From: a virus
Virus record (IMG/VR): IMGVR_UViG_3300032220_000952
Span: 1 to 60,261 of that record
DNA length: 60,261 nt
Strand: one strand, 5' to 3'
Part shown: positions 12,962 through 59,018 of the stretch, one piece after another
Layout: each line of letters starts with the position of its first letter
Position numbering within the stretch: position 1 is the stretch's first letter
Position numbers and translations under genes: made by a program
Notes under the pieces: generated by a model
Databases searched by the model: none
Told to the model about the DNA's origin: nothing
What the model saw: the letters and a program-made list of their open reading frames with translations, nothing else

Positions 12962-12973
12962 AATTAATATAGT

Positions 12974-13252: not shown

Positions 13253-13285
13253 ACATTTGTTGTTTATAGTTTTACAACCTATTAA

Positions 13286-13660: not shown

Positions 13661-13663
13661 ATG

Positions 13664-25704: not shown

Positions 25705-27946
<2,242 letters not shown>

Positions 27947-35186: not shown

Positions 35187-35630
35187 TTATACCTTTCTTA
35201 TTCCTTTATGATTATCTATTTTATCAAGTATTTCATTTAACAAGCTCATCTTTATGTATCCAGCCATAGATGCGTTTTTAAGTGCGCTTATTAATTGAAA
35301 CACCATAAATGGAACAACGATTACTTCACTCAGCCACCCCGTACCATTAAATCCTTTTTCAACTATTAATATTGTGGATAGTATCATTATCCAAACAAAT
35401 GTATTTCTTAACACACTTAGTGCTTTATGTGTTTTAAATCCCTCTCTTTTTGAACCGGCGATTATTCCAAATATACCATCTAAAAACATTACACCAATTA
35501 CTGCGGTGTATTGGTCTTGATTGTTCATATATAGATTAAGAAAATAACTGCATATAAAAGCACATAAGCCTGATATGGATGTTATTGTTAATATCAACGG
35601 GTTGGTGAGTATTTGTAATTTACTTGTCAT
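35187..35630 (-). CDS. Phage holin-family protein
   Basis: This 147-residue protein has four hydrophobic spans (about 12-34, 41-57, 71-90, 98-116) and a K-R-E-G-F-K-T-H-K loop. The central F-L-D-G-I-F-G-I-I-A-G-S matches the phage holin family with a D-x-x-x-G-x-x-x-A core. It should make the inner-membrane hole for the endolysin encoded just upstream in the transcript. The lysis set is endolysin, two coiled-coil membrane proteins and this holin. Confidence 0.75.
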   Translation of the reverse strand: MTSKLQILTNPLILTITSISGLCAFICSYFLNLYMNNQDQYTAVIGVMFLDGIFGIIAGSKREGFKTHKALSVLRNTFVWIMILSTILIVEKGFNGTGWLSEVIVVPFMVFQLISALKNASMAGYIKMSLLNEILDKIDNHKGIRKV

Positions 35631-36224: not shown

Positions 36225-36824
36225 TTATTTAAGTAATGCGTAATATTCTTTAAAGTGTTTGATACGGTCAGGTAAACCAATTGTACCACCATTTACTCTT
36301 TTAGTAATTGCGGTTACATCAGCATCAGTTGCGCCCTTATCTGCGATAGTATTCAAGCCATTGCTAGACCAAAACCAAGCAGCTGATAATAATGGATACT
36401 TTGTTGCTACTAAATCTGGGTTTGCAGCGATATCTTCGTTGATAGCTTTACCAAAAGCTACATAGTTGTTCTTACCTGTCAATTGAATATAACCTCTACC
36501 TCTAAACTTATATCCATCACCACTTACCTCATCACCATTACCCATTCTACCACCATATACTAAGTTAGCAATCTTCTCAGGCTTTCTTTCATATTGAAGA
36601 GCTTTAGCTTCAGTTGGGAAATATTTTTTGAAAATACCCAACAAACCTTTTGCACCATAGTTCAAATTTTCTTGAATGGCTTTAAAACCAGCACTTTCGT
36701 GTCCACATTGTGCTAAAAAGTGAGATAATCTCAAAGCTGAATCAATTTTGAATGTACTCATCACAGACGGGATTTGTCCAATTACTCCATCAGGAACATG
36801 CCCTTTTAACTTATTAATATCCAT
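36225..36824 (-). CDS. GH19 chitinase-fold endolysin
   Basis: This 199-residue muramidase-type enzyme has the GH19 catalytic helix L-A-Q-C-G-H-E-S-A-G-F (Glu43), then E-N-L-N-Y, and G-D-G-Y-K-F-R-G-R-G-Y-I-Q-L-T-G (near 103). No signal peptide is seen, so it requires the holin. The cleavage target is most likely peptidoglycan. A TATTTATA box lies 27 bases before the ATG (36851-36858), consistent with late expression. Confidence 0.92.
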   Translation of the reverse strand: MDINKLKGHVPDGVIGQIPSVMSTFKIDSALRLSHFLAQCGHESAGFKAIQENLNYGAKGLLGIFKKYFPTEAKALQYERKPEKIANLVYGGRMGNGDEVSGDGYKFRGRGYIQLTGKNNYVAFGKAINEDIAANPDLVATKYPLLSAAWFWSSNGLNTIADKGATDADVTAITKRVNGGTIGLPDRIKHFKEYYALLK

Positions 36825-36864: not shown

Positions 36865-37266
36865 TTATCGTAAAAAAGATTTAAAAACAGTTTCTTTTGC
36901 AACACCTAACAAAATATGCCCTACAAAAAATGATGCTGCCGGCCAAAAACCATAAACAGCAAACCCAAAACACACAGAAAGAACTTTCATCATCTGAAAA
37001 AAGTGTTCTGCATCACTAAATCCTACGAATAAGGTTGAACCATATGGATATCTTTCTGCTTTAGGCATTGGAACACCAAAGTGATACCATTTTTTTTCAT
37101 ATGGTAGTGGATTACCATCTTTATCTAATTTCCATTTACCCTTCCAAGAGTTTTTTGTATTCCATTTTTCATACTTACCTTTCCAATTATTTGAAATACA
37201 CTCATCTTCAAGTTCATTGAAGAACATAAACAAAAAACCAGCAACTAATATAACTAATAATTCCAT
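36865..37266 (-). CDS. Membrane protein with Trp/Lys-rich loop
   Basis: This 133-residue protein has hydrophobic segments at the start (about 2-17) and end (about 95-122). Between them lies a Trp/Lys-rich repeat-like loop (W-K-G-K-Y-E-K-W, then W-K-G-K-W-K-L) and P-Y-E-K-K-W-Y-H. The loop could face the periplasm or bind glycan. It resembles no family that I can name. It lies between the exported-protein cluster and the endolysin. Confidence 0.6.
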   Translation of the reverse strand: MELLVILVAGFLFMFFNELEDECISNNWKGKYEKWNTKNSWKGKWKLDKDGNPLPYEKKWYHFGVPMPKAERYPYGSTLFVGFSDAEHFFQMMKVLSVCFGFAVYGFWPAASFFVGHILLGVAKETVFKSFLR

Positions 37267-37280
37267 ATTTACTCCTTTTT

Positions 37281-37682
37281 TTATTTTTTAAATGCGGATT
37301 CTAATGATTTTCTTAAAGCAGAACTAAATTCGGTTCTTTCAAATGGTAGGTTTTCATCTTGCAATTGTAAAATCGTAGAAGATACTGATGTTTTGTTTGT
37401 ACCTTCCCCAAAATACTCTTTACCATCCATCGTTATTTTAGTTTTTACAACAGTTTTCTTTTGCTTAAATTCAAATGGACCCACTCTAATACCTTTCGTT
37501 GGTGCTTCAATTGATAAAATTTCTACAGTTACTGGTCTACCATCATCGCAGAGTGCGTATTTATCATTTACCAATTCAGTAACGATTTGTTTTGCACCAT
37601 AAGTTAATTTTGTATCAGGCACTCCATTCATATGAGCAAGTGTGATAACGCTTGAAATAAAGTAACATACTATTGTGTTCAT
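37281..37682 (-). CDS. Exported small protein in the CsgG cluster
   Basis: This 133-residue protein begins M-N-T-I-V-C-Y-F-I-S-S-V-I-T-L-A-H, a likely signal peptide. The mature part is mostly beta (V-T-V-E-I-L-S-I then V-V-K-T-K-I-T-M) with a C-terminal helix (S-A-L-R-K-S-L-E-S). Size (about 130) and position recall CsgE/CsgF-type curli accessory proteins, but no signature is visible, so this is only a hypothesis. Confidence 0.5.
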   Translation of the reverse strand: MNTIVCYFISSVITLAHMNGVPDTKLTYGAKQIVTELVNDKYALCDDGRPVTVEILSIEAPTKGIRVGPFEFKQKKTVVKTKITMDGKEYFGEGTNKTSVSSTILQLQDENLPFERTEFSSALRKSLESAFKK

Positions 37683-37694: not shown

Positions 37695-39410
37695 TTAATA
37701 AGTTAAAGTTGATTGATTTGTAAATCCTGGTGATAATAAATATAGGTTTGTTGTACCTCCACTCAAAGGAGTAAAAGTATAGGTAGATTGAACTCCGGGT
37801 ATTGAATTTCTTAAATCGGTTGTGCTGGTGGTTAAGGTTGTCCATTGTGAGTTTGTGAATAGTAAAGTTCTTTTAGTATAAGCCAATCCATTCACCCATT
37901 TGATTATTGTGTTTATATCACCAATCGTAATATTATTATCACCATTTAATTCATATTTGTGGTAGTGGTAAGACCTGAGTGGTGTTCTTTGTAAGATAAT
38001 ATCATCAACTCCTACAAAATCAATAGAAGATAGATTTGAGGTTGTAGTTGGGATTACTACTTCAATATACCATTCATCTCCGTTTGTTATTGGCTGTGAA
38101 AATGAATATTCCCCTAAAGTGTTTGTTGTAGATGTGGTTTGTTGAGTCCAAGGAGTGAATGTTGGTGCTAATACACCCAACTCCGATGTTTGTAATGAAT
38201 AGGTACTTTGATTGGGTCTTTTCCAAACAACAGCCAATCCATCACCCCCACCATATTCTTGCATCCTTGCTCTAAAAGTGTATTGAGTCCCCGCTACTAA
38301 GTTTATATTCCCATATATCGGCCCACTCATTCCGTGTCCACCATAATAACTTACTACAAAAGTTCCACCAATGAATAAATCACTACCATCATCTGAATTT
38401 ATACCAAATGAGTATGTCCCACTTACAGCAGGTATAAATGTCCCCGTAACTTCAACCGAATAGTAATCTCCATTATTGGGAACAGTTGCACCTGCATTTC
38501 TTATAGTTGTAAATGTATTAAAGTTTAAGCAAGTTGTTGTAGGTAATGTCCCCGACCATCTGAGTTGAGTATTCGTAAAGGTTGTATTGAACAATCTATC
38601 AAATTCAGTTGTGTTCGTTGGATGCGCCACATATTGTGATGTGTTTCCATTTCCAGCATGCGTTGAAAAAACCTTTACATCCATCACATTAGATAATCCA
38701 ATTGTTTGACCCCTCTTAAAAAGTTTTGTAAGTATGTTTGAAACAGGTACATCGTTTTCAGTTCTGATAATGCCTGAGTGTGTAAAAGGTATGAAGGGTG
38801 TAAACAATACAGATGAATTAGAAGTCGGACTCCAATTAACACCATTTCTACCGGTTGTTGTGATTATTTGTGAGTTATTGTTGTTTGATATCCCTTGAAG
38901 AGATGCACCAGAAGAACACCCCGGATGTGTACTGACATTTATTTGTATTGTATTTGTTGTTTCTGATAATACGATTTGAAAATCCGTAAAAAGTGTGGTG
39001 CTGGAATTACAGCTATAATAACCTATATGATAACTTACAACAAATTTTCGGTTTGGAGATGAACCAATAGTTTGGTATCTTACAAAGTAACCAGAGATTG
39101 GAAATAAATCCATAGCATTGGCATGAATACCATTACTTACTACACTATTAGGCGAACCACCAACAATATCACCACCTGCATTTGTAAAAGATATCCATCC
39201 GTTAGAACATATGTTGACGGTTGTAAAATTTGTTCCCCAATAACTGAATGTAAAACCTATTGGTAAATTAGATATAGTTTGGTCATCCCCTAAAGTTAAA
39301 GCAGTCCCAGCAGTTGATTCGTATGAGTAGGTGGGTGTTGATTGAGTATAACTCATTTGCCCAAATACCGAAAATGGTAGTAATAGTAATAATATCAACT
39401 TTTTCATCAT
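37695..39410 (-). CDS. Exported PA14-domain protein with dockerin-like repeat
   Basis: This 571-residue protein begins with a Bacteroidota signal peptide (M-M-K-K-L-I-L-L-L-L-L-P-F-S-V-F-G-Q). Residues about 310-405 form a PA14-type domain (T-G-T-F-I-P-A-V-S-G-T-Y-S-F, then S-D-D-G-S-D-L-F-I-G-G and A-G-T-Q-Y-T-F-R-A-R), usually carbohydrate-binding. Residues 487-508 are dockerin-like (N-G-D-N-N-I-T-I-G-D-I-N). The first 250 residues are beta-rich. The start overlaps the preceding gene as ATGA. It could be an adhesin or glycan-binding surface protein. Confidence 0.8.
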   Translation of the reverse strand: MMKKLILLLLLPFSVFGQMSYTQSTPTYSYESTAGTALTLGDDQTISNLPIGFTFSYWGTNFTTVNICSNGWISFTNAGGDIVGGSPNSVVSNGIHANAMDLFPISGYFVRYQTIGSSPNRKFVVSYHIGYYSCNSSTTLFTDFQIVLSETTNTIQINVSTHPGCSSGASLQGISNNNNSQIITTTGRNGVNWSPTSNSSVLFTPFIPFTHSGIIRTENDVPVSNILTKLFKRGQTIGLSNVMDVKVFSTHAGNGNTSQYVAHPTNTTEFDRLFNTTFTNTQLRWSGTLPTTTCLNFNTFTTIRNAGATVPNNGDYYSVEVTGTFIPAVSGTYSFGINSDDGSDLFIGGTFVVSYYGGHGMSGPIYGNINLVAGTQYTFRARMQEYGGGDGLAVVWKRPNQSTYSLQTSELGVLAPTFTPWTQQTTSTTNTLGEYSFSQPITNGDEWYIEVVIPTTTSNLSSIDFVGVDDIILQRTPLRSYHYHKYELNGDNNITIGDINTIIKWVNGLAYTKRTLLFTNSQWTTLTTSTTDLRNSIPGVQSTYTFTPLSGGTTNLYLLSPGFTNQSTLTY

Positions 39411-40630
39411 AACATCAATTTAGTTCCTGTTAATACCTGCCAATTTAAGAATGTTTGATTCAATTGATAAACGCCTGAAAAACTTATAGTCCATTTAAAC
39501 TTATCAGTTACTTTCAAATCGGTATTCACCATTGGTATGAATAAAAATCCACTCTTATACCATTGCCCTGCATAGAAATAAATATAGGGAGAATACACAG
39601 CTAATCCAAGAAAATTAACACCAATTGATTTTCCACCTTTAAAGTTTGTAAATCCCCCACCAATCAAAGACCAATTTCTAAAAGTATTTTTACTAATCTC
39701 ACCCAATGTAAAGGTTGTTCCTCCCATAAGTGTTATCTTATTTATTTTTTGGGCATTGAGTAGGGAAGCAGTTAAAAACCAATCTTCTTTAAAGTTACTC
39801 ATATACGATGTAGAAAATATACCCATATACTCTTTATACTTTAAAGAACCATACCCCGATACATTTAATATGTTTTGTCCAGTTTGATAGTTTATGTTTA
39901 TACCCTTAATAAAGGTTTGTGAGGTATTGACATGAGTTAGAGATGTATTGAATCTGAAATTATCACTACCCTTTTTTGTAATATCTGAATCGTTTCTTAT
40001 TATTACAATATCCCCCGTTGCTATTAAAGCACCATTTGATACTTTGGATGATGATTTACTCTTGCCACCTCCACCACCTCCTCCACCATCACCACTATTT
40101 TCACTTTCACCACCACTTGCCGTTTGTTGGTTTTGTTCTCCCACTACACCACCCTCACTACCTTCAGTTGAGGAACTGCTGTTATTGTTGTTATTATTGC
40201 TTCCACCATCACTTCTCGGTGCGGGTGGGGGTGTGGGTATGCTTCCAACAGAACTGCCGATAGAACTCGCCATAGATACTACTGATGTTAGGTTAGCAAC
40301 TCCTCCCGCAGTTACACTACCTATAAAGTTAGAAACATTATTTGATGCTTCCGCTCCTTCGGCTGCGCAAGGGTTTGAGCCGGGAGGTAAAGCATCTCTG
40401 ATAGATTGTACCCATTGCTCATACGCCCCACCACTCAATTCAGCATAGGTAAATATGCGGTATTGTCCCGCATAAAACATTGTTACTTCAGATGATTGTG
40501 TTTGTAATTGAATTGATTCAGTTCTACCATTACATGGGTTGATATAAGAATAGGTGAAACTCTGAGCGTGTACACTCAAAATTCCACCTATAATTAAGAT
40601 AGTAGTAAGTAGTAGTTTTTTACCAACCAT
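39407..40630 (-). CDS. Exported Gly/Ser-rich protein with C-terminal beta-barrel-like domain
   Basis: The ATG at 40630 is preferred over TTG. The 407-residue product has a signal peptide ending V-H-A-Q, a beta N-terminus, then a low-complexity linker (about 135-200: Asn, Ser, Glu, Gly runs) and a C-terminal domain with alternating strands (I-N-Y-Q-T-G-Q-N-I-L-N-V-S) ending in L-T-G-T-K-L-M-L. The end resembles an outer membrane beta-barrel with a hydrophobic C-terminal strand. It overlaps the CsgG-like gene by 11 bases, so the two may form a unit. Confidence 0.7.
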   Translation of the reverse strand: MVGKKLLLTTILIIGGILSVHAQSFTYSYINPCNGRTESIQLQTQSSEVTMFYAGQYRIFTYAELSGGAYEQWVQSIRDALPPGSNPCAAEGAEASNNVSNFIGSVTAGGVANLTSVVSMASSIGSSVGSIPTPPPAPRSDGGSNNNNNNSSSSTEGSEGGVVGEQNQQTASGGESENSGDGGGGGGGGKSKSSSKVSNGALIATGDIVIIRNDSDITKKGSDNFRFNTSLTHVNTSQTFIKGININYQTGQNILNVSGYGSLKYKEYMGIFSTSYMSNFKEDWFLTASLLNAQKINKITLMGGTTFTLGEISKNTFRNWSLIGGGFTNFKGGKSIGVNFLGLAVYSPYIYFYAGQWYKSGFLFIPMVNTDLKVTDKFKWTISFSGVYQLNQTFLNWQVLTGTKLML

Positions 40631-41315
40631 TTTGCTCAAGACGCTTTACGAGGTTCATTGTCGCAACCTCCAAAGCCTTCTGAGTAGCAATACCAACGGT
40701 TGATTGGTCAAATCCCATTGTAGGGTTTTTAAAGTAACCCTCACCAAATTGTGTAGATTGTCCTTGACCTGAAGCAACTATAAATTGTGAGTTTTCTACA
40801 TTTACTAAACGAATTTGGATACCCATAATGGTTGTATTCGTTTTCTTTAATTTACCCTTATCATAGTTTTCTGCGTATGAAACTGAAAAATCGTAGATTT
40901 CAGCATAAACTATGTATTTAGGTAAACGAATACCCTGCATTTTAAGTTTTGTTTTACCATCATCTAAACCATCAATCTTCTTTTCCCATGCATCCAACAT
41001 TTGGTTTACAACGGCATCTTTTTCTTCAGTAAATTCAAAACGATTAGTATATAATAGGTTTTCTATAATACGATTAGATACACCTAAGCCAAGTCTTTTT
41101 TCTCTCAATTCAGGAAATGTCTCCCAAAGTTCTTTGTTTACATTTAATTTTGAAAGTTGAAGCGTTTGTTTCTTACCTGTGTAGGTAGAGATAGATTCCA
41201 ATGTTCTATCTGTCTTTTCAAAATCCGCTTGATATTGTGTAGTTGATATAGATGATTTACACCCACTCAATAACAACAAGCAACTTACGATTGGAATTAA
41301 AACTATTTCTCTCAT
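40620..41315 (-). CDS. CsgG-like outer membrane lipoprotein
   Basis: This 231-residue protein has a lipobox L-S-G-C (Cys19) and the CsgG pattern: I-I-E-N-L-L-Y-T-N-R-F-E-F-T-E, a beta sheet (Y-A-E-I-Y-D-F-S-V-S and I-Q-I-R-L-V-N-V), V-G-I-A-T-Q-K-A-L-E-V-A, then a final helix L-V-K-R-L. CsgG forms the outer membrane secretion pore for curli. Related genes occur in marine T4-like phages, where the role is unclear. It is followed by two exported proteins and sits near lysis genes. It starts with an ATGA overlap at 41312-41315. Confidence 0.75.
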   Translation of the reverse strand: MREIVLIPIVSCLLLLSGCKSSISTTQYQADFEKTDRTLESISTYTGKKQTLQLSKLNVNKELWETFPELREKRLGLGVSNRIIENLLYTNRFEFTEEKDAVVNQMLDAWEKKIDGLDDGKTKLKMQGIRLPKYIVYAEIYDFSVSYAENYDKGKLKKTNTTIMGIQIRLVNVENSQFIVASGQGQSTQFGEGYFKNPTMGFDQSTVGIATQKALEVATMNLVKRLEQNGW

Positions 41316-41710
41316 TCTTCACCTTCCTGTTCTGCTTGTTTAGCTCTCAATCTCTTCATTCTCTCAGCAGGTGTTTCTTTCTTTTCTTCAACAGGTGCTG
41401 CTGCAGCAGGAGCTGCGGTTTGAGCTGGTGCTACTTCTCTGATAGTTTCCTTTTCTCTGATTACAGTAGTTCCACCACCACTACCTGCGGATGAATTACT
41501 TTGGTTGTTGTTCTCCAAATTAAGATTGATTACTGGTGCTGCGGCAGGTGCGGCCTGTTCCGTTTTGGTTTCTTCACTATCGTTTCCACCACCACCAAAT
41601 AAGGTTGTGGAAATCCACACACCACCACCCGTAACTACAGTGGCGAGTGTTCCAACGATGGTCTTTTTTAATCCACCCCAAGTACCATCATTTTCTGTCT
41701 CTTCTGCCAT
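41312..41710 (-). CDS. Membrane protein with Ala/Pro-rich low-complexity tail
   Basis: This 132-residue protein has one hydrophobic segment (T-I-V-G-T-L-A-T-V-V-T-G-G-G-V-W-I), then a Gly/Asn/Ala/Pro/Glu-rich tail and a basic, coiled-coil C-terminus (E-R-M-K-R-L-R-A-K-Q-A-E). The tail is unlikely to fold. It overlaps the CsgG-like gene at its stop (ATGA). It may anchor or organise the exported cluster. Confidence 0.6.
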   Translation of the reverse strand: MAEETENDGTWGGLKKTIVGTLATVVTGGGVWISTTLFGGGGNDSEETKTEQAAPAAAPVINLNLENNNQSNSSAGSGGGTTVIREKETIREVAPAQTAAPAAAAPVEEKKETPAERMKRLRAKQAEQEGEE

Positions 41711-41723
41711 TTTTTCTCCTTTT

Positions 41724-43625
41724 TTAGAATTTAAATATTTTGTAAACTTTTTGCTTTTCGTTAGTGGTTAATCTTACAAAGTAAAAACCTGTCTTTAAAT
41801 CACTAACATTGATTTTTTTCGTAACTACTTCATTTTGATTTACGAACTCTTTTTCTGAGTAAAAGTTTTTACCCATATAATCGTAGATTTCGTATGTTAA
41901 ATATCCCCAATTGGTTTGGAAATAATCTATGTTTAAGTTGTCTTGAACTGGATTTGGATATATTCTAAACCCATTTACTAATTCGTTTACAAGTTCTCTT
42001 GCTCTTCTACCATTAACCACAGTCGCATCTACAGGTGAAGGGATGATATTCAAATCTTCTGCTTTTTCATTTCCCGCTGCTTTGTTGGTTATTTTAATAG
42101 GTGATTGTTCCCAGTTTTGATTTAAGATTTCAAATTGGAAATTAAACATTTGAGTTGGGTTGGTGATAAGTGATGGAGACATTTTAGATTCGTGTCCACC
42201 CCAAGTTATCTCACCAGGTTTTGCTGAAATGAATGCGTTCCAAGCACTTGCTTCAGGCCCTACATTAACATTTGTAAACCTAAAAATGGTTGGGTCATAC
42301 TTTAAAGATAATTGTGCTGCACCTACTTTGTTTCCATGTGTGATAAAGGTAACAGCAACATTTACTGAATTATCATCTGAAATAGTTAATTTAGGTATTC
42401 TAAATTGGACTGAATCTTCAATGTTTTGATAGATTGTTCCTTCATCCAATACATAAGATGTTCCGCTTGTTGGGTTGTTTACTCTTTGAATTTGGAATGA
42501 TAAGTTGTTTAATCCAGTATTTGTTACATCCCCTAAAACATACCCTCTATAACTTAAGGAACTTAATCCATTCAATGGAACATCAATGTTAGTTGTACCT
42601 ATGATATTGGTTTGGAATACATCTGGGTTAGCCATAATCGTAGCGTATTCTCCTGCGGTATAGTACCTAACATTGTATTCATTTGCTACTACAGGAGACC
42701 AAGTAGTTCTACCCGTTGCTAAACGATTAAATATTAAATAAGCATCGGATACGGATAATGTGTTATTGCGGTTTACATCACCTTGTTGGAACTCGTATGC
42801 TTGGGCAGTATCAGCGTAAATACTCATATCGGATAATCTATAAGCATCGGTAATGTTGATAGCTGAATTATCAGATAGGGTATCTAAATTTGATACTAAC
42901 TTAACATTGTAGAAAGATGTATCGTATGGGATTTTAATTCCTGCTAAACCAGCAGCGTCTGTTACAAATCTTTCACCACGACTATAAGTTTGTGTGGTTT
43001 TCAGTTTGTAATCAAATGCGAATGGCATATCCGGCGCAGGTGTTCCATCTACATTTAATAAGGTTACGGGGAACACCAAAGTATCCATTTGGAATCTACC
43101 TCCGTAGCTGTAAACACCTAAAGCGTTATCAACACCAGCGGTTGTGGTTGCTATGTTTGTGTAGGCAGGGGTAGATTGAACTTCTAATGAATCAACGGAA
43201 GAAGGATTGAACCCAACTGCGTGTGGGAGTAAAACTTCAAATACAGCACCATCAGGCCAATCAAATACTGCTGATGTCCCAGTATAGATTGCCGTTGCGT
43301 TTACCCAACCAGGTTGACTATAGTAAGAACCATACTTTGTATTAATTCCAGTTGCGGTTGGTCCCCATTTTACAATAGGTTGTTTGAACGATGTGGTGGG
43401 GTAGAAAAATCTAACCTGAAAACCAGCGTAGTTTGTAGCAGTTGGATTGTGATAGTGTAAATATACTACAGTAGTGTCCTCTAATACACTACCCAATGTA
43501 AACACCGTATCAATCAAAAAGTGTGGTGAGTTTGAGTTTGGCGATACTAATACTTCCGTTCTTCCGTTTTGAGCAAATACTCCAAATGGTAAAAGTAACG
43601 CAAATAATAAAATAAGTTTTTTCAT
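41724..43625 (-). CDS. T9SS-secreted protein with dockerin-like repeats and cohesin-like domain
   Basis: This 633-residue exported protein begins M-K-K-L-I-L-L-F-A-L-L-L-P-F-G-V-F-A-Q (signal peptide). Two dockerin-like repeats lie at 252-269 and 282-305 (S-A-I-N-I-T-D-A-Y, then R-N-N-T-L-S-V-S-D-A-Y), and a cohesin-like domain at about 410-505 (V-G-A-A-Q-L-S-L-K-Y-D-P, then G-E-I-T-W-G-G). The end (about 555-633) has F-R-I-Y-P-N-P-V, then L-K-T-G-F-Y-F-V-R-L, the type A sorting domain of the type IX secretion system. The host T9SS would export and may anchor it. Confidence 0.85.
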   Translation of the reverse strand: MKKLILLFALLLPFGVFAQNGRTEVLVSPNSNSPHFLIDTVFTLGSVLEDTTVVYLHYHNPTATNYAGFQVRFFYPTTSFKQPIVKWGPTATGINTKYGSYYSQPGWVNATAIYTGTSAVFDWPDGAVFEVLLPHAVGFNPSSVDSLEVQSTPAYTNIATTTAGVDNALGVYSYGGRFQMDTLVFPVTLLNVDGTPAPDMPFAFDYKLKTTQTYSRGERFVTDAAGLAGIKIPYDTSFYNVKLVSNLDTLSDNSAINITDAYRLSDMSIYADTAQAYEFQQGDVNRNNTLSVSDAYLIFNRLATGRTTWSPVVANEYNVRYYTAGEYATIMANPDVFQTNIIGTTNIDVPLNGLSSLSYRGYVLGDVTNTGLNNLSFQIQRVNNPTSGTSYVLDEGTIYQNIEDSVQFRIPKLTISDDNSVNVAVTFITHGNKVGAAQLSLKYDPTIFRFTNVNVGPEASAWNAFISAKPGEITWGGHESKMSPSLITNPTQMFNFQFEILNQNWEQSPIKITNKAAGNEKAEDLNIIPSPVDATVVNGRRARELVNELVNGFRIYPNPVQDNLNIDYFQTNWGYLTYEIYDYMGKNFYSEKEFVNQNEVVTKKINVSDLKTGFYFVRLTTNEKQKVYKIFKF

Positions 43626-43645: not shown

Positions 43646-43990
43646 CTATTGTTCATTTGATGATAGCGAAACCCCATCTTCTTCGTCCATTTTCTGAACA
43701 AGCATCTTATCTCTATCTTCGTTAGAGAACCAAAAGTCTACTACTTTGTTTAGATTACCCACAAAAGCACCTAAAAGGATAAGTAGTAACTCTTTCCACG
43801 CTTCTTCAATACTTGCTTTGAACATTACTGCTAAAACAATACCAAATACGATAAAAAAGAATGTAAATAAAATTAGTAATGTAATTTTCCAACGATTTGA
43901 CTGCATCGTTTGGAGCATGAAATTGAATCTTTGGTCATTTTCAACTCTTTGAAAATCTTCGTTGTATAGTAATTTGTTAATAAGTCCCAT
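43646..43990 (-). CDS. Holin-like two-span membrane protein
   Basis: This 114-residue protein has an N-terminal charged region, two transmembrane segments (about 35-57 and 64-83) and a short loop. The end has L-G-A-F-V-G-N-L-N-K-V-V-D-F-W. That layout resembles small holin-like proteins of marine phages. It is followed by the T9SS cargo gene and preceded by another holin-like gene. Confidence 0.6.
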   Translation of the reverse strand: MGLINKLLYNEDFQRVENDQRFNFMLQTMQSNRWKITLLILFTFFFIVFGIVLAVMFKASIEEAWKELLLILLGAFVGNLNKVVDFWFSNEDRDKMLVQKMDEEDGVSLSSNEQ

Positions 43991-43992
43991 AA

Positions 43993-44244
43993 TTATTCCT
44001 CACCTTTGTCGCAGTTACAATCTTTCTTTTTGAAAATCTTATCTGCGGATGCTAAACCTAAAGCTCCAAAAGCAAGTGCAGCAACTGCATTTACTAATGA
44101 ATCAGCTGGGGCGATGTGGGATTCGGTGAATTGATTGTGGTACATTGTAACACATAGTGTTAATGCTGATAAAATACCCACAAATCGTTTGGATGAAAAT
44201 CCTCCTTTTTCGTCTTGGAAGATTTCAGTAAAAAATCTCTTCAT
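43993..44244 (-). CDS. Holin-like small membrane protein
   Basis: This 83-residue protein has two hydrophobic helices (about 20-35 and 48-70) and ends with a Cys-rich charged tail (D-C-N-C-D-K-G-E-E). The N-terminus has E-K-G-G-F-S-S-K-R-F-V-G-I-L-S-A-L-T-L, a segment that I recall from small Bacteroidota phage membrane proteins. A TATTTATA box (44306-44313) lies 62 bases before the ATG. Confidence 0.55.
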   Translation of the reverse strand: MKRFFTEIFQDEKGGFSSKRFVGILSALTLCVTMYHNQFTESHIAPADSLVNAVAALAFGALGLASADKIFKKKDCNCDKGEE

Positions 44245-44526: not shown

Positions 44527-45714
44527 TTAGGCATAATTATTCACAATTTTTATTAAATCATTTTCGTAATGTCTTACTGAACTAATATGGAATTTAAATA
44601 TATCCATTTCATAATAACCAACTGATATTTCATTCTCTGTTAAAATCTCCGATAATCTTTCAATAAATATAAAGTTATTTTGGTTTAACATCGTACCATC
44701 AAACTCAACAACAATATCATTTTCGCAAATAGGGTCGTGGTGGTTAATTAAACGAATTCTTCTACTTAAATCAAACTTTGTATTTTTTTGTTCTTCATCA
44801 ATGTAATTGGTGGTTATCATACCATATCCATCTTCTATGTATATTTTATCACACCAAGGTTCTAATGTTCTCAACAACTCTAAATTACAATTGTTTACTA
44901 CTAAACCAACACCGTATTTGTGGGGGATGATTGGATACTGATACTCATCGTTTTTTATCCAACTACCCCATTTACGCAGATAGTTTCGGGCAGCAGATTG
45001 TTTCATATTATGAAAATCTACATCTTTGGTAACTTGCTCTATTCCATCCTGAAACTGACCTCCTCTACAAGTTAGATGATACACAAAAGCTGTCCATATT
45101 TGTGTAATATCATATCCATTTAAAATAAATCTATTAAAAATATCACTATCTTCGTGATAAGAGTGAAAAGTTTCATCGTGCATCCCAATTTTAGTAATAT
45201 CTTCTTTATAACAAGCCCATGGAGCAAATATCCCTTTGGTTGTTATGTTTTGATTTTTCGTAATTAACTCCCTCACAAATTCATCAAATTCTTCTTTTTT
45301 AAAATCTTCAGGATAAAGTCCAAAGTTTTTAACTATTTTTTCTTTTCCTTCTGGGTGTAATGGTGGTTCAATTCTAGTTCCGGCTACAATACTACCCCGT
45401 TTCAAAAACTTTAAAATATTTTCATCAAACCCTCTAGCCACATACATATCAGCGTGAAACATACAAACTATTTCAGTAGTTGCCATTTCAATACACTTAT
45501 TATAAGCATGGGCAATTCCTTGTGGTTTATTTAAATCATTTTTAAGGTATTGAATTCCGTTTTCAATTAACCATGTTTCTGTCCCATCCTCATCCATATC
45601 AACATAGACAATAATATGGTGTTCAATAGCACTATTTTCTTTAATAGATTTAATACTATTTTTTAAGTATCTAAGATTGTTTTTGCTTGGGATACAAAAA
45701 GTTATTTTATTCAT
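44527..45714 (-). CDS. GT2-type glycosyltransferase
   Basis: This 395-residue protein starts M-N-K-I-T-F-C-I-P-S-K-N-N (ATG at 45714; the longer frame starts with TTG). It has the GT-A fold: N-N-L-R-Y-L-K-N-S-I-K-S-I, V-Y-V-D-M-D, a D-x-D-like H-A-D-M-Y, and a catalytic loop F-H-S-Y-H-E-D-S-D-I. The C-terminal half is of unknown type. It would add a sugar in the glycan pathway of this region. Confidence 0.8.
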   Translation of the reverse strand: MNKITFCIPSKNNLRYLKNSIKSIKENSAIEHHIIVYVDMDEDGTETWLIENGIQYLKNDLNKPQGIAHAYNKCIEMATTEIVCMFHADMYVARGFDENILKFLKRGSIVAGTRIEPPLHPEGKEKIVKNFGLYPEDFKKEEFDEFVRELITKNQNITTKGIFAPWACYKEDITKIGMHDETFHSYHEDSDIFNRFILNGYDITQIWTAFVYHLTCRGGQFQDGIEQVTKDVDFHNMKQSAARNYLRKWGSWIKNDEYQYPIIPHKYGVGLVVNNCNLELLRTLEPWCDKIYIEDGYGMITTNYIDEEQKNTKFDLSRRIRLINHHDPICENDIVVEFDGTMLNQNNFIFIERLSEILTENEISVGYYEMDIFKFHISSVRHYENDLIKIVNNYA

Positions 45715-45715
45715 A

Positions 45716-46273
45716 TCAAACCCAATGTGTAAATTTAACTCCAATTTTTTCAATTTCTTTTATCAATTCAATTGTACTGTTTTTATCTTCCCCATTTTCT
45801 AAAATAGGATACATATCTTTGTGTGAATGAAACTCTACAAATAAATCATTTAGATATTGAATTGAATTATCTTCTATCATTTTTCTCAAAACAGCATATT
45901 CCGCACCTTCTATATCCATTTTAACAACTATAAAATCATCTTTAGAAAAATTTTGTATTATAAATTCGCTAAAATCCAAACACATTACATCAATAGAGCC
46001 ATAGTAATTTTTTCCTATATGGTTTTTATATATAGATGATGAATCGGTGTTTGGGTATGCAATATTAAACGTAATTATTTCATTATTAGTATATATTGCT
46101 TTATTAATGTAATGAATATTATTGTGAATATTTTGTTCGTTGTGCTCTTGCCATAAATAAGTGTTAGGTTCAAATGAGTATATTTCCCAACTACTATCCA
46201 TATTATACATTTGTATGAATTTCATTAAACCCTCTGCCAAATGCGTCCCGCAATCTAAAAATATTTTTTTCAT
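45716..46273 (-). CDS. FkbM-family methyltransferase
   Basis: This 185-residue SAM-dependent methyltransferase has the motif F-L-D-C-G-T-H near residue 5, F-E-P-N-T near 34, and V-V-K-M-D-I-E-G-A-E-Y near 118, the FkbM pattern. It likely O-methylates a sugar. It lacks the N-terminal helices of typical FkbM proteins, so it is a short member. Two other FkbM genes lie nearby. Confidence 0.8.
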   Translation of the reverse strand: MKKIFLDCGTHLAEGLMKFIQMYNMDSSWEIYSFEPNTYLWQEHNEQNIHNNIHYINKAIYTNNEIITFNIAYPNTDSSSIYKNHIGKNYYGSIDVMCLDFSEFIIQNFSKDDFIVVKMDIEGAEYAVLRKMIEDNSIQYLNDLFVEFHSHKDMYPILENGEDKNSTIELIKEIEKIGVKFTHWV

Positions 46274-46285
46274 ACTATCTAATTA

Positions 46286-47119
46286 TTATTTTGGTAAACA
46301 CAATAAGTTATGACCAGATTTCGGTGATATATCAGTATGTGTTTTAATTTTATTTCCTAAATTGTTAATATCAAATACACCATTACGTTCATCATAGCAC
46401 TCATAGTTTAAATCGGCTATAACATATAATAGTTCATCTATTTCTTTAAAATTTAAACCATCGTATAATTCTGTTATTAATACAGGTTTACATTCAGTTA
46501 TAATAGGTTTAAGGGTTGGAATTATATTTTTATCATGTCCTTCAGCATCTATTTTGATTAAACTAATATTATTTATTAAATTATTGTGGTGTTCTTTTAA
46601 AAAATCGGCTGTATTTACAGCAAAAACATCCAATGGAATAGTATGGCCGGTGACCCCGATACCAGCATTTAAAGATTCCGCGTATCCGCCATTACAAAAA
46701 CCATAGTCGGAATAATGAAAGGTTAAGTTTGTATTTTTTGTAGAACATGCTAAATTGTAAGGAATAATATTTTGATGTATGGTTGAATTTAATTCCAACA
46801 CTTCATAAGCAACTGGATTTGGTTCGAATGAAATAACTTTATTTGCAAATAGTGAAAAAGCTATGGACATATTTCCTACTTGGGCACCAATATCTATTAC
46901 ATTTGAATTTGGTCTAATTAACTTCTTTATATTATTTAATATGGTATTGGTAAATAATTCGCGTTGCTCCCAATTTCCTTGATATGGGTGATTCCATTTA
47001 TAATATTTAAAATTATATTCAATAATATTGTAATTAACAATACTGCTTGAATAGTGAAAGTTATTTTTTTTTAAAAATTGTATAACTTCTTCTCTGTATT
47101 CTTTAATTTCTTTTAACAT
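46286..47119 (-). CDS. FkbM-family methyltransferase
   Basis: This 277-residue protein has N-V-I-D-I-G-A-Q-V-G-N-M-S near residue 75, F-E-P-N-P-V-A near 100, and L-I-K-I-D-A-E-G-H-D-K near 192, the FkbM signature. It likely O-methylates a glycan. It overlaps the preceding gene by 7 bases. Confidence 0.85.
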   Translation of the reverse strand: MLKEIKEYREEVIQFLKKNNFHYSSSIVNYNIIEYNFKYYKWNHPYQGNWEQRELFTNTILNNIKKLIRPNSNVIDIGAQVGNMSIAFSLFANKVISFEPNPVAYEVLELNSTIHQNIIPYNLACSTKNTNLTFHYSDYGFCNGGYAESLNAGIGVTGHTIPLDVFAVNTADFLKEHHNNLINNISLIKIDAEGHDKNIIPTLKPIITECKPVLITELYDGLNFKEIDELLYVIADLNYECYDERNGVFDINNLGNKIKTHTDISPKSGHNLLCLPK

Positions 47120-47997
47120 AAAATTTTATTTTTAAATTTTTCTAATTCATTTAAAAGATTTGCTTCAGCGTGTCTTTTAAACTCCAATTGCTTATCAATT
47201 AAGTGTAAATATTTTTGATATGGATTATGGCGGTATTTAAAATTTTCTATAACTATTACTTCTTCTAGCACAAATTGTTGTATATTGTAATTACAGTTCT
47301 TCATTATATCACAACACAACATAACATATGTATCATCCACGCCATATGGTCCAAATGAATCAGGAATATCTGTTAATTTTAATAATTTAGTGGATAGCAA
47401 ATTAAACCAACCACCACCGAATTTAAAATAATTTATACTTTTTAAATTTACATCACCACTAAAAGAATAGTTGACAATTTTAAAAGGATCAACATTCCTA
47501 TATCTTTCTAAATTTGGTGATAAATTGATAAAATTTTTGTTTACTAAAGAATCCCAACTATTATCCCACATTTTCATTATTTCCGGTGATATAACGTAAT
47601 AATCAATATTAATTTTTTTAGAAGATTCTATCAAATAAAAAAAATGCTCGGGTTTAAATATAACATCACAATCTAAATAAAGAATATTATCAGAGGTGGT
47701 TGAACGTACAGCTTCTCTTCTTTTATCATCACACCCCATACATTTATTATCATCATCAATCACAAACTGAATTTCCGCCCAATCCCACAATTTTTTTATT
47801 TGATTAAATTTATCGATGAAAAATTGTTTAGGTATTTGTGATTTTTTCCAGTCAACTAAATTTAAATTTAAAGTGGTATCTATTATTATTTTATCTTCCG
47901 GATTGAGATAATAACTACCAATTTTAAATTGTAATGATTGCCATTCAAACCAGTCTATTTCATGTGGTAGTAGATGAACTACTATATGCGTTTTCAT
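47113..47997 (-). CDS. GT-A-like glycosyltransferase
   Basis: This 294-residue protein has Y-L-D-C-D-V-I-F near residue 107, a D-x-D metal motif, and F-S-G-D-V and G-G-G-W-F-N-L near 178-200. The overall pattern fits a GT-A-fold transferase of unassigned family. It overlaps its neighbours by 4-7 bases. Confidence 0.65.
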   Translation of the reverse strand: MKTHIVVHLLPHEIDWFEWQSLQFKIGSYYLNPEDKIIIDTTLNLNLVDWKKSQIPKQFFIDKFNQIKKLWDWAEIQFVIDDDNKCMGCDDKRREAVRSTTSDNILYLDCDVIFKPEHFFYLIESSKKINIDYYVISPEIMKMWDNSWDSLVNKNFINLSPNLERYRNVDPFKIVNYSFSGDVNLKSINYFKFGGGWFNLLSTKLLKLTDIPDSFGPYGVDDTYVMLCCDIMKNCNYNIQQFVLEEVIVIENFKYRHNPYQKYLHLIDKQLEFKRHAEANLLNELEKFKNKILC

Positions 47998-48845
47998 TTT
48001 AGTAAATGTTTAAATTTATTTTTGTTTATTTTTATATATTCGGGCAAGTTTACATTATCTATCCAATATTTAAATTCATTTCTACCCAGAATATCTGTAT
48101 TATTTTTTAAACTGTTAGAAATGCTGTTTTTAATATAATCATTATTATATTCTTGATGGCCAAAGTTTTCTATTTTGGTTTTAATTCTATCAACACCACC
48201 TTGATAAGAAAAATGCCAACCAGCATTATCAATATAGGTGTATGTAGTTTTATTTGGAGTATCTAAGTGATTTACACTTGCATTTTTAATATTTTTAAAT
48301 TTACTATAATAAGTTCCGGCCCATTCTTCACTACTACGCATGTTAAGATACATAGAAAAAACCAATTGTTTACACTTATATATTTGATTATCATCTATAA
48401 CATAACTAATATTTGGATTCCAAATTTCATCCAAATCCGATATATAGCACACGTCATCATCGGCAATTCCAGCATTAATTAAAGCATCTTTCATACATTC
48501 TTTTTGATAAAATTCACGCATCCAATGAAACTGCCCATATGGTACATTTGTAGTAGTTAAACAATTCAAATATTTTTGTTTATCAATAGTTGTTGATGCA
48601 TTCAAAAATCTGAATTGAAGCTCCTCATACGATTTTGGGGTATCATCAACTATATGATGTATTATTTTGTGTGCATATTTTTTAAATAATTCTTTATTTT
48701 CATCATAAAATAATTTTTTATTTAATCCAGAAAAAGAAATGTTTGATTCAACAATTACAAATTTATCTACAACATTTTCAAGTGTATTTAATCTAATTTC
48801 TAATAATTCTAATTCATTAAAGAATATAAAGCAATCGTATATCAT
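47994..48845 (-). CDS. GT17-family glycosyltransferase
   Basis: This 283-residue protein carries Y-D-C-F-I-F-F-N-E-L-E-L-L-E-I-R-L near the start, K-F-V-I-V-E-S-N, F-Y-D-E-N-K-E-L-F and Y-I-S-D-L-D-E-I, a hallmark of GT17 (beta-1,4-mannosyl-glycoprotein GlcNAc-transferase family). The substrate in phage or host is unknown. It overlaps the next gene at ATGA (48842-48845). Confidence 0.88.
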   Translation of the reverse strand: MIYDCFIFFNELELLEIRLNTLENVVDKFVIVESNISFSGLNKKLFYDENKELFKKYAHKIIHHIVDDTPKSYEELQFRFLNASTTIDKQKYLNCLTTTNVPYGQFHWMREFYQKECMKDALINAGIADDDVCYISDLDEIWNPNISYVIDDNQIYKCKQLVFSMYLNMRSSEEWAGTYYSKFKNIKNASVNHLDTPNKTTYTYIDNAGWHFSYQGGVDRIKTKIENFGHQEYNNDYIKNSISNSLKNNTDILGRNEFKYWIDNVNLPEYIKINKNKFKHLLK

Positions 48846-49744
48846 TTTAAGTAAATTTTTGTTTGATTAATAAATAAATTTAATTCTCTTTTACATTCAT
48901 CGTATGTTTGTAAATTTCCAAATCTATCCATATAAATAAAATCTTTATATAAATTACAACCCATAGACCAATACCCGTTAGATATATTATGTCTTGCCCA
49001 ATATTTTGGAGCAATAATTAATTTTGCTAACTCATTTGTTAAAGCTGGGAAATATCCAAAGCTAGAGTTGGATAAAATTAACCACTTTGCGTTTTTTATT
49101 ATTGAATAATCCTCCCCAACACCCATGTGAAAAACATTATCGGATAACTCAGGTAATAAATTTTTTACACAATTTGGATTTTCGGTAATTACAGCAAAAG
49201 TCATTTGGGGATTAATACTTAGCATATGATTAATAGCATTAACCCAATATGTTCTAGATAAAAATAATGTATCATCACCCTCATAGTCCCGTATATTTAA
49301 AATACACACATCATCATTTGAAAAATCATATATATCATATTCGGGCTTAACACATAACCATTTTTTAATATCATTTTTATAATCATAAAAATAATCTTCC
49401 GATTGTAATAATCCATCTATTTTGCAATTATCATGTAACGATAACACATTATAATCAGTCAACCGTATATCACACCCTATAGTTGCATCGTGCTGACTAG
49501 TATTTAATTTGATTCTACATTCTTTTTCTTTGTAGTAATTAGTAATTGCGCTAATATCAACAGGCAATCCTAAATCCAAATCCATAAAATACACTCCTTT
49601 ATCGTTGTATCTTCTATCTCCAAAGTTTTCTAAACCAGTGAAACCAAATTCATACCCATTGCGTAGTGCAATAGCTCTTGTTGTAACATATACAGCAAGT
49701 TGGTTTCCAAAACCCTGTCCATAATAAAATTCGGTTGTTATCAT
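48842..49744 (-). CDS. GT11-like fucosyltransferase
   Basis: This 300-residue protein begins with Y-Y-G-Q-G-F-G-N-Q-L-A-V-Y, the GxGNQ element of alpha-1,2-fucosyltransferases, and has A-K-W-L-I-L-S-N-S-S-F-G-Y-F near residue 220, where typical members show S-N-S-S-F-S-W-W. The Trp-Trp pair is lost. The family is GT11 or a relative. It overlaps the GT17 gene by 4 bases. Confidence 0.65.
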   Translation of the reverse strand: MITTEFYYGQGFGNQLAVYVTTRAIALRNGYEFGFTGLENFGDRRYNDKGVYFMDLDLGLPVDISAITNYYKEKECRIKLNTSQHDATIGCDIRLTDYNVLSLHDNCKIDGLLQSEDYFYDYKNDIKKWLCVKPEYDIYDFSNDDVCILNIRDYEGDDTLFLSRTYWVNAINHMLSINPQMTFAVITENPNCVKNLLPELSDNVFHMGVGEDYSIIKNAKWLILSNSSFGYFPALTNELAKLIIAPKYWARHNISNGYWSMGCNLYKDFIYMDRFGNLQTYDECKRELNLFINQTKIYLK

Positions 49745-49762
49745 TAGATATAAATTTTATAG

Positions 49763-51115
49763 TTAATTGGATATTAAGTTATTATAATTATGATTTTTTC
49801 CATGAAAGCCAAATGTTAATATACCATTATTTTCCGGTATTGGTGTTTCAAAAGAAAATTTTGATGCAACATCAATTGGTGCAAATTTACAACCATTTGC
49901 TTCATAAATGTGCTTGTTATGACAACAAAAAAATCCATCTTCGTTGTAAAACCCAAAGTAAGACTTCCACTCAAGATCCAATTCACTAGCTAATCTAAGT
50001 AGTTTTTTACTTCGCAGTGAAAAACCACCATTTCCAACTCGTTGTAAGTTACCATAACTATCTTTAAATGAAAAATCATCTTCAGGTATTGGCCACGGAG
50101 CTCCTATATAATCATATTCTAAAAACAAACCATCCCATTGTTCTGCATTAACAACAAACCCATCCTCTTGTATAATAAGGGCAAATTCAGTATTAATATA
50201 TTTATGTAATTCATATACAATAAATTTACTGTATTCATCGGTATTTAGTATGGGGTTAATTTTAATAACATCTATATTATCTAACACACATTCTTCACTT
50301 GTTAATAATAAAACATTTTTAAATTCAATATTTTTTACAGAATATTGTAACGCTTTTATAGCACGTTGCACATTAACAGATGTAACACATACTAGTGTAA
50401 CATTTTCTAAATACTTTTTGTATTTTTTAGTAATGTAGTGCACTTCTTTTTCTATAATTTTATCATTAACTATTGTATTTGTTGTTCTGTTAGGATGTTC
50501 TCTATTTACAACAGTAACATAGTTACAAATACTTGGTAGTCCAAATTTATCATACAAACGTTTATAATAGTCAACATCAACCAACCATATTAGATTTTCA
50601 TCAAACTCCAAAACATTTTTATTTTTAAACATTAAAACACTGGGTGAACTAATAGTATTTTCACCATAATGAATATTATCGTGATATTTAGGATATACTG
50701 TGTTGTAAAAATTTATTCCATCATTGGAATGACAGCAAGCTGTCACCATCCAATGGTTGTAATTTCCTACAAAATGATATATTTGATAGTATAAACTGTT
50801 TTCATCTACCAAAAAATCATCTTGACAAAGTATTTTTATAACATCACCCGAAGCCTTTGATATTACATTGTTTAAATTGGGCGCAAGTGTTCCGTATTTT
50901 TTTTGATAAAAAAAGTGTTTTATATTTAATTTATTAGACCATTCATAACACAAATTTTTTATTTCATCATTTTTACTATGATCTGAAATAATAATTTCAA
51001 AGTTAGTGTAAGTTTGTTTGGCTAATTTTTGAAAAGAAAAATCTAAATATTTTTTTCCGTTTCCACCCATTTCATATGTTGGTATGCATACACTAATTAA
51101 AGGTAAATTATTCAT
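49763..51115 (-). CDS. Two-domain GT2 / DUF5672 glycosyltransferase
   Basis: The 450-residue protein has an N-terminal GT2 domain (P-L-I-S-V-C-I-P-T-Y-E-M, then S-D-H-S-K-N-D and C-Q-D-D-F-L-V, about 1-225). The C-terminal part (about 238-440) matches DUF5672: L-V-C-V-T-S-V-N-V-Q-R-A, I-I-Q-E-D-G-F-V-V-N, Y-D-Y-I-G-A-P-W and V-G-N-G-G-F-S-L-R-S. A fusion that adds two sugars in turn is likely. Confidence 0.85.
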   Translation of the reverse strand: MNNLPLISVCIPTYEMGGNGKKYLDFSFQKLAKQTYTNFEIIISDHSKNDEIKNLCYEWSNKLNIKHFFYQKKYGTLAPNLNNVISKASGDVIKILCQDDFLVDENSLYYQIYHFVGNYNHWMVTACCHSNDGINFYNTVYPKYHDNIHYGENTISSPSVLMFKNKNVLEFDENLIWLVDVDYYKRLYDKFGLPSICNYVTVVNREHPNRTTNTIVNDKIIEKEVHYITKKYKKYLENVTLVCVTSVNVQRAIKALQYSVKNIEFKNVLLLTSEECVLDNIDVIKINPILNTDEYSKFIVYELHKYINTEFALIIQEDGFVVNAEQWDGLFLEYDYIGAPWPIPEDDFSFKDSYGNLQRVGNGGFSLRSKKLLRLASELDLEWKSYFGFYNEDGFFCCHNKHIYEANGCKFAPIDVASKFSFETPIPENNGILTFGFHGKNHNYNNLISN

Positions 51116-51116
51116 T

Positions 51117-51794
51117 TTAAAAAACTTTTTTTAATTTGCTTATATTCATTGTAATGTTATTTGGCGCATTAATTGGTGCGTTGATGGGTTTTGTATCAAA
51201 TTCTTTTTTTGTAAGACTATGCCAAGTTTTTATTTCAGTACCTACATTATAAATACCAAAACAATTTTTATAAATTAACTTTATAATTAACTCTGATATT
51301 TTATTTACATAATCACCATTTGTAAATTGATTATCCCATGCGTTTTTATATGGAAATGGGTATGGTTTATGAGATGTTCTAACTATTAAATAGTTTTTAC
51401 ATTTTAATTGTATGTGGGCATCACCAAGTAATTTTGTGTAACCATACCAGGTTTCTAAATGAACAGGAACATCTTCCTCTGATGCTTCTGTTTTAGAATT
51501 TGCATAAATATAATCAGTAGATATATGAGCAAGTTTTTTTCCTGTCTCGTTACAAAAATTTACTAATGTATCAACAAACTCATAATTTACTTTCCAATGC
51601 AATTCTTTATTATTTGAATATGTGTCTGTATTTGCTATGCAATTAATGATAACGTCATATTCAGAAAGTTTAAACATCCATTGGTTAAAGTCAAAAATAT
51701 CTATTCCATCTTTTTTTCTTGAAATATAATCCCAATTAGTTTGTTTAACCAATTCAGAACCTAATAAACCATCACCAAGAATTACTATTTTCAT
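51117..51794 (-). CDS. RmlD-like NAD(P)-dependent sugar reductase
   Basis: This 225-residue short-chain dehydrogenase-like enzyme has V-I-L-G-D-G-L-L-G-S-E-L (G-x-x-G-x-x-G variant), I-S-T-D-Y-I-Y-A near 93 and Y-G-Y-T-K-L-L-G near 117 (Y-x-x-x-K active pair). It resembles dTDP-4-dehydrorhamnose reductase but is shorter. It likely completes a deoxy-sugar path. It overlaps the 3-dehydrase gene as ATGA (51791-51794). Confidence 0.8.
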   Translation of the reverse strand: MKIVILGDGLLGSELVKQTNWDYISRKKDGIDIFDFNQWMFKLSEYDVIINCIANTDTYSNNKELHWKVNYEFVDTLVNFCNETGKKLAHISTDYIYANSKTEASEEDVPVHLETWYGYTKLLGDAHIQLKCKNYLIVRTSHKPYPFPYKNAWDNQFTNGDYVNKISELIIKLIYKNCFGIYNVGTEIKTWHSLTKKEFDTKPINAPINAPNNITMNISKLKKVF

Positions 51795-53077: not shown

Positions 53078-53133
53078 ATTTTAATTTTTGTATTTTATTT
53101 TTTAAATTTATATAAAAACTATTTTATATAGAG

Positions 53134-54021: not shown

Positions 54022-54022
54022 A

Positions 54023-55003: not shown

Positions 55004-55026
55004 TTTTATTTATTTTTATTTATTAT

Positions 55027-55782: not shown

Positions 55783-55791
55783 TGTTATTTT

Positions 55792-56460: not shown

Positions 56461-56525
56461 TTTGTTTTAAATTTTATTTTATCAAGCAATGTACTAAACC
56501 ACTTGAATTCATATATAATATTTTT

Positions 56526-57299: not shown

Positions 57300-57305
57300 A
57301 TAATA

Positions 57306-58052: not shown

Positions 58053-58075
58053 AATGTAATTTTTAAGATTAAATT

Positions 58076-58813: not shown

Positions 58814-59018
58814 AACATTCTAAAAAATATGTTTGATCTATTTCAACTGAAAGAATTTTATTAAAGCCCAAGTCTAGGGCTTTTAGTATGCCATCTCCAT
58901 GATGAGTGCATGTTTCAAAAAATATATTATGATTAAATTTATATTTTTTGGATAATTCAAAAAAAGTTAATCCTTTAATTCCTTCAACTGTGACTTGAGA
59001 ATGTGTTTTATATATCAT
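58800..59018 (-). pseudogene. Truncated SAM-dependent methyltransferase
   Basis: The 72-residue product has F-F-E-T-C-T-H-H-G-D-G-I (a degenerate SAM-binding loop) and F-N-K-I-L-S-V-E-I-D-Q-T-Y, then stops. Full methyltransferases of this type continue for about 150 more residues, and none is found in the next frame. The fucosyltransferase gene begins within it. It is probably a remnant, though a short functional protein cannot be excluded. Confidence 0.6.

Follow-up and report, generated by a model that had tools for sequence, protein, structure and literature searches.

Organisation of the cassette

This work concerns a gene cassette in a 60,261-nucleotide stretch of viral DNA (IMG/VR record IMGVR_UViG_3300032220_000952, positions 1 to 60,261; hereafter, the window). 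A preliminary description, made from the letters of the window, had singled out two open reading frames (ORFs), at 37695-39410 and 41724-43625, as a possible two-component cohesin-dockerin complex on the cell surface. Both ORFs are present, and they belong to a conserved set of at least six genes that is carried by many viruses of Bacteroidota bacteria and that also encodes a lipoprotein with a CsgG fold and a presumed outer membrane (OM) barrel. We tentatively read this set as a phage-encoded apparatus for display on the host surface. The genes of the cassette, with the evidence for each in brackets, are:

41724..43625, minus strand: COH, 633 amino acids (aa), the scaffold protein (Pfam and NCBIfam; AlphaFold 2 (AF2) model; VIA; calcium-ligand columns)
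41312..41710, minus strand: p132, 132 aa, with a possible N-terminal transmembrane segment (alignment)
40620..41315, minus strand: LP, a 231-aa lipoprotein with a CsgG fold (AF2; Foldseek; VIA; bacterial relatives over the PF03783 cut-off)
39407..40639, minus strand: OMP, 410 aa, a presumed OM barrel (alignment and a weak profile match, from which the barrel is deduced)
37695..39410, minus strand: slot protein, 571 aa, PA14 plus a dockerin segment (Pfam; alignment; hhalign against COH)
37281..37682, minus strand: p133a, 133 aa, a CsgG-like paralogue of LP (hhalign)
36865..37266, minus strand: p133b, 133 aa, present only in close relatives (profile comparison across loci)

Leaders (signal peptides) and lipoboxes were assigned by eye throughout. 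L-numbers (L033, L079, L109, etc.) are the labels of relative loci and contigs in the comparison set.

COH carries two cohesins, a dockerin and a sorting domain for the type IX secretion system

The domain anatomy of the cassette proteins can be given with high confidence. COH consists of a leader (MKKLILLFALLLPFGVFAQ), cohesin 1 (~30-180), an Ig/CarboxypepD-like domain (~182-246), a dockerin (~248-304), an X segment (~315-375), cohesin 2 (~400-540) and a sorting domain (~552-633) of type A for the type IX secretion system (T9SS). A PHROGs search assigned neither COH nor the slot protein to a family.

The cohesin that the preliminary description saw in this protein is recognised by Pfam at residues 407-517 (E 2.2e-6), and the AF2 model (mean pLDDT 80.3, pTM 0.56) contains two. 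Residues 400-540 adopt a cohesin fold by VIA comparison (Z 16.0 to 6kgd_A, 2.3 Å over 138 residues), as do residues 30-179 (Z 14.3, 2.8 Å over 139 residues). Because the pTM is low, domain placement and internal docking are unreadable from the model. The sorting domain, which the preliminary description had missed, supplies a concrete route for the surface assembly proposed there: Por_Secre_tail (T9SS type A) matches residues 555-630 (E 2.4e-14; 53.8 bits, cut-off 27), TIGR04183 scores 39.6 bits (cut-off 23), and the modelled tail matches the fold of the NucA tail in 8glk_D (VIA Z 11.4). The tail is found in 36 of 39 COH homologues (T9SS-tail and Dockerin_1 matches were both counted at E≤0.1).

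Dockerin-like repeats had been claimed for both proteins, and the claim holds by way of their relatives. Dockerin_1 matches 14 of the 39 COH homologues (best E 7.8e-5) and 8 of 44 slot proteins (best E 0.0011), and the C-terminal 156 residues of the slot family (416-571) align with COH 209-374 (hhalign 99.25%, E 5.9e-20). In the second COH repeat, the calcium ligands D283, N285 and D294 are each invariant across the 39 homologues, in all of which position 5 is S, N or D and position 9 is T, S or D; the first repeat is irregular, with one extra residue. The slot dockerin has a single canonical repeat and a degenerate first one. Position 12 of the canonical repeat is D in 44/44 slot proteins, position 1 is D, E or N in 44/44 and position 3 is N, D, S or T in 43/44; positions 1, 3, 5 and 9 are more variable than position 12. 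The main repeat has kept its ligand positions, so a refutation of the dockerins from sequence, which the preliminary description had tied to missing calcium-binding residues, fails.

The slot protein exchanges its glycan-binding module

The slot protein of the window comprises a leader, an extra N-terminal domain (~15-207), a PA14 domain (312-406; Pfam E 5.1e-13) and the dockerin segment (416-571); no T9SS domain was found in it. The extra N-terminal domain occurs in a separate 395-aa gene in relatives (L007 17197-18381 and L009 16095-17279), the product of either module fusion or module fission.

PA14, which the preliminary description took to be the sugar-binding module on display, is indeed present, but it has alternatives: the exchangeable glycan-binding modules of the 44 slot proteins include lectin C in 19, PA14 in 12 and laminin-G in four. 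Identities were compared across 62 cassettes, 52 of them distinct. In the 31 cassette pairs whose LPs share 95% identity or more, the median slot identity is 79%, and five pairs fall below 40%; in the pair L109/L110, LP is 99% and COH 96% identical, and the slot protein only 37%. Near-identical cassettes thus exchange their glycan-binding module, be it C-type lectin, PA14 or laminin-G. No glycoside hydrolase is among the matches listed for the 44 slot proteins (25 of 26 Pfam families). The docking parts resemble those of a cellulosome, but the mini-cellulosome of the preliminary description is dropped, no catalytic subunit having been found.

LP, p133a and OMP as a presumed outer-membrane base, and p132

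LP has the lipobox LLSGC. Its AF2 model (pLDDT 73.9) finds CsgG chains as best matches in the Protein Data Bank (PDB; Foldseek E 1.2e-8), and VIA comparison with CsgG entries gives Z 13.2-14.4 (14.4 for 4uv2_P, 167 residues aligned, 5.2 Å), the next unrelated entry scoring 11.4. TraT, a candidate for the nearest relative, was set aside as a weaker fold match (Z 8.6) than CsgG. The fold assignment rests on the AF2 model because a sequence search of the PDB with LP gave no credible match. PF03783 (Pfam CsgG) does not match the window LP; its cut-off (20.8 bits) is passed by two of 33 LP-family members, both bacterial (L142, 28.6 bits; L143, 33.0 bits). The model has long strands (134-194) that might correspond to the two pore-forming transmembrane beta-hairpins of the CsgG family, but their tips look hydrophilic by eye. 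In Flavobacterium phage vB_FspM_immuto_2-6A (Immutovirus; immuto below) and several other relatives, the LP leader appears to be of the non-lipid type.

The second CsgG-like protein, p133a, is related to LP (hhalign 97.9%, E 5.9e-13); a single-sequence search with it returned implausible matches only, as did PDB profile searches with p133a and OMP. OMP has a leader, two conserved cysteines and a low-complexity linker, followed by a C-terminal region that is putatively beta-barrel-like. Within the leader-coding start of its gene lies a 19-pair RNA hairpin (40550-40591, minus strand) with a minimum free energy of -34.1 kcal/mol (z -4.6; 0/200 shuffles as good), whose outer stem arms are invariant across eight aligned sequences; it could reflect coding constraint or translational control.

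In two bacterial loci (L142 and L143), an LP gene is clustered with another CsgG-like gene and one for an OMP-like protein. The phage OMP profile matches those bacterial OMP-like proteins weakly (69.6%), so that LP, p133a and OMP might, at best, represent an old bacterial module. Downstream of the CsgG-like pair in L142 (Ignavibacteriales), the gene at 11370-13844 gives a partial match to 'anti-phage protein ProA' (65 bits, far below the NCBIfam cut-off of 1500).

p132 has a Pro/Ala/Asn linker and a charged C-terminus, and is 61% identical to its immuto counterpart over aa 1-51. Many p132 homologues (e.g., L106, L112, L145 and L144) end in a C-terminal tryptophan (ESW/APW/PKW), in place of which the subgroup of the window has a charged, helix-like end. 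Weak Pfam matches of the small cassette proteins (calcyon, thymosin, etc.) were dismissed as chance.

The cassette is conserved among phages

Synteny was assessed in IMG/VR loci containing LP. Of 79 loci fetched, one was dropped for a truncated LP and 26 for flanks shorter than 5 kb upstream or 6 kb downstream, leaving 52. Gene families were assigned with custom profiles (E≤1e-4); p133a and LP were told apart by gene position, because the p133a profile also matches LP. COH and OMP are each present in 52/52 loci, p132 in 51 and the slot protein in 48. p133a is likewise present in all 52, downstream in 49 and upstream in three.

The cassette is phage-owned. LP has at least 511 relatives in IMG/VR (600 candidate stretches), while 84,980 species genomes yielded four loci. 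Within one phylum, two of the 395 genomes have relatives, and one of these two is a Flavobacterium metagenome-assembled genome that contains the L144 contig. A phage collection yielded four LP-bearing records, all of them immuto.

Variants that bear on mechanism

Several relatives depart from the arrangement of the window. Firstly, two genes take the place of COH in Immutovirus (gp014 and gp015) and in L033, with products of 363 and 243 aa. Cohesin 2 and the T9SS tail lie on one chain and the dockerin on the other, and leader-like N-termini are seen in gp015 and in both L033 proteins. This placement of cohesin and dockerin in separate genes suggests that they act between chains.

Secondly, one clade encodes a protein of the PorV/PorQ family (98.6 bits against an NCBIfam cut-off of 90; the equivalog cut-offs for PorV and PorQ are not reached). 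The gene was seen at L079 8190-9041 and in L154-L162, and the T9SS-tailed COH lies directly upstream of it in 9 of 9 viral contigs. Judging by its divergence, our guess is that the clade is marine.

Second matches to Por_Secre_tail occur in four of 16 cassette-bearing records, two over the cut-off and two below. Another protein with a T9SS tail, ~520 aa long and by eye resembling a beta-helix, was noted at L150 1241-2812, L151 2817-4370 and L152 2380-3927, and the end of a 533-aa neighbour (L152 3951-5549) resembles, by eye only, a T9SS type B/gliding-motility C-terminal domain.

Genomic neighbourhood

The cassette lies among genes for lysis:

43646..44244, minus strand: p114 and p83, small membrane proteins, holin-like by eye only (directly upstream of COH, gaps of 2 and 20 nt)
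36225..36824, minus strand: endolysin, GH19-like, adjoining the cassette (PHROG 181, E 1.9e-73; Pfam)
35187..35630, minus strand: holin, downstream of the endolysin (Pfam Phage_holin_4_1, 24.1 bits against a cut-off of 22.2)

From p83 to p133b, all genes are on a single strand with intergenic gaps of -20 to +20 nt, and 40 nt then separate p133b from the endolysin gene. To this extent the layout agrees with the single transcript, and the leader-like N-termini of COH and the slot protein with the signal peptides, of the preliminary description. Promoter-like sites (41, against a mean of 34.9, sd 6.8) and terminator-like sites (4, against 4.6, sd 2.5) are near chance overall, so we claim no transcript boundary.

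On its other side, the cassette adjoins a long run of glycan genes (44527-60049, minus strand) encoding family 2 glycosyltransferases, GT11, a GDP-mannose dehydratase-like protein, an epimerase, a DegT aminotransferase and an FkbM methyltransferase; the phage may also modify surface or virion glycans. Elsewhere in the window are phage-encoded genes for a GroEL-type chaperonin (25705-27312) and a glutamine synthetase-like protein (16097-17104).

Proposed function and alternatives

Under the display reading, COH would be exported by Sec and then by the host T9SS, through its C-terminal sorting domain, and once on the cell surface would serve as a small scaffoldin. Its cohesins would dock the variable glycan-binding protein by its dockerin, as the split Immutovirus genes suggest, and may also bind the dockerins of other COH copies, giving chains. 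LP, p133a and the presumed barrel would make up a base in the OM or a passage through it; this might serve the slot protein, whose leader is not accompanied by a T9SS signal. The parts of this proposal differ in strength. A cell-surface location is a well-supported prediction that we consider likely; binding in trans between cohesin and dockerin is also well supported, and somewhat more probable than its absence. The two-component idea of the preliminary description survives in the homology and the split genes, but is too simple: COH has two cohesins and a dockerin of its own, in a set of at least six genes. In the boldest version, a widespread lineage of Bacteroidota phages would build a surface organelle: a scaffoldin exported by the T9SS, each subunit with two cohesins and one dockerin, would chain to itself on a base of CsgG-fold ring and OM barrel and present a plug-in lectin exchanged between phages by its dockerin, with a phage-owned PorV/PorQ-like shuttle in some clades. 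This version seems to us rather doubtful.

What such display would achieve is a matter of functional guesswork. Lying among late lysis genes, the cassette would probably coat the infected cell and its debris with lectin, so that surface glycans are masked or occupied; this could lower superinfection and the loss of progeny on receptors, and the lectin would be exchanged as hosts and competitors change. The cassette probably alters what can adhere to the infected cell; a masking role in particular is speculative, and we hold it less firmly than display itself.

Several observations weigh against this picture. Pfam calls no dockerin in the window COH or the 571-aa protein, which is why the dockerin assignment had to rest on relatives. 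Four of the 52 loci retain COH and have no slot protein. COH has no T9SS tail in the L144/L105 group, where it is followed by a lipoprotein of 122-123 aa with the lipobox CSDLE/CSDIE, presumably akin to the surface lipoprotein export signal of Flavobacterium. The p133a of the window's clade starts at the mature N-terminus of its relatives and seems to have no leader. A masking lectin might be thought to have a fold in common with an adhesin of the virion, and a lectin family shared with the virion is not supported in 14 virus records: lectin C has one match in each of eight and PA14 one in each of five, and the only match clearly outside the slot is a PA14 in a ~1825-aa ORF (G401). Tail fibres may, however, use folds other than those of the slot lectins. 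Finally, the neighbourhood of lysis genes fits a role in lysis equally well.

That last point leads to the alternative we rank second, although we think it unlikely: disruption of the OM at lysis, in which p132 (in the inner membrane) and LP would form an unusual spanin pair, and the exported scaffold and lectin would weaken the surface layer. Of the 52 loci, 41 have an endolysin no more than 7 kb away, holin and endolysin genes neighbour the cassette in the window, the genes for p132 and LP share 4 nt, and the window LP looks like a lipoprotein. However, the apparently non-lipid LP leaders of immuto and several relatives do not suit a spanin, and the swapping of lectins is hard to account for.

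Somewhat less likely again is that no complex forms in trans. The cohesins and dockerin of COH would then bind within the chain or be structural relics, and the slot protein would be an independent secreted lectin. COH does bear both partners, and this reading would accommodate both the loci that have no slot protein and a slot dockerin with one canonical repeat only. Against it stand the division of COH into two genes, the conserved calcium-ligand positions and a dockerin frame that is kept while the lectin is swapped.

The lectin C, PA14 and laminin-G modules, on a cohesin/dockerin scaffold capable of polymerising, would also suit adhesion or aggregation, with infected cells sticking to particles, algae or neighbours and so helping progeny to reach hosts; a position among lysis genes leaves little time for such a benefit, and we give this explanation little weight. 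Decoration of the virion, with cassette proteins attached to the particle as adhesion modules, is highly unlikely: sugar-binding modules are common on virions, but tailed phages assemble in the cytoplasm, and the proteins of the cassette look, by eye, as if they bear leaders or membrane segments, COH having a T9SS tail as well.

If the display reading is correct, these phages do more than break the cell: late in infection they remodel its surface by means of the host T9SS and a cellulosome-type docking code, the plug-in dockerin is a natural module-swap system for lectins, and superinfection exclusion and the avoidance of debris become open to experiment in Bacteroidota. The PorV/PorQ-like gene points to phages contributing components of a secretion system.

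Comparison with known systems

T9SS cargo in phages is already known. The Cryophage report (PMC7468147, 2020) describes phage-encoded T9SS type A cargo that varies between variants, one such protein having a PA14 domain, and its authors proposed superinfection exclusion as one role. There, the PA14 protein itself carries the T9SS tail; in the window, the tail is on a separate scaffold that is accompanied by a CsgG-fold/OMP set. The words 'cohesin' and 'curli' are absent from the main text of PMC7468147, as are 'lectin', 'mass spec' and 'secret' from that of PMC7077304. Among the papers listed by our searches of the open-access literature, only the Cryophage report was on point, and we found no phage cohesin/dockerin display set, phage CsgG-fold lipoprotein or phage PorV/PorQ-like protein.

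With cellulosomes, the cassette shares the cohesin fold, dockerin repeats with conserved calcium ligands, and modular, exchangeable partners. It differs in being phage-borne, in its T9SS tail and in the one canonical repeat of the slot dockerin, and we do not file it as a cellulosome because no enzyme subunit is among the slot families listed. The CsgG/curli channel shares its fold with LP, whose bacterial homologues pass the CsgG cut-off; the window LP, however, has no PF03783 match, and CsgA, CsgB, CsgE and CsgF have no Pfam match among the ten window genes scanned (E≤1). T5 Llp is a phage lipoprotein that blocks a receptor, and TraT acts in surface exclusion; the cassette would act alike if the masking guess is right, although those are single lipoproteins.

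A further counterpart is Immutovirus, a cultured phage (on Flavobacterium sp. LMO8) that carries the same set of genes as gp013-gp019. Its annotation is piecewise, with gp013 a C-type lectin and gp015 a cohesin domain protein, and it differs from the window in that COH is split between gp014 and gp015 and a C-type lectin replaces PA14.

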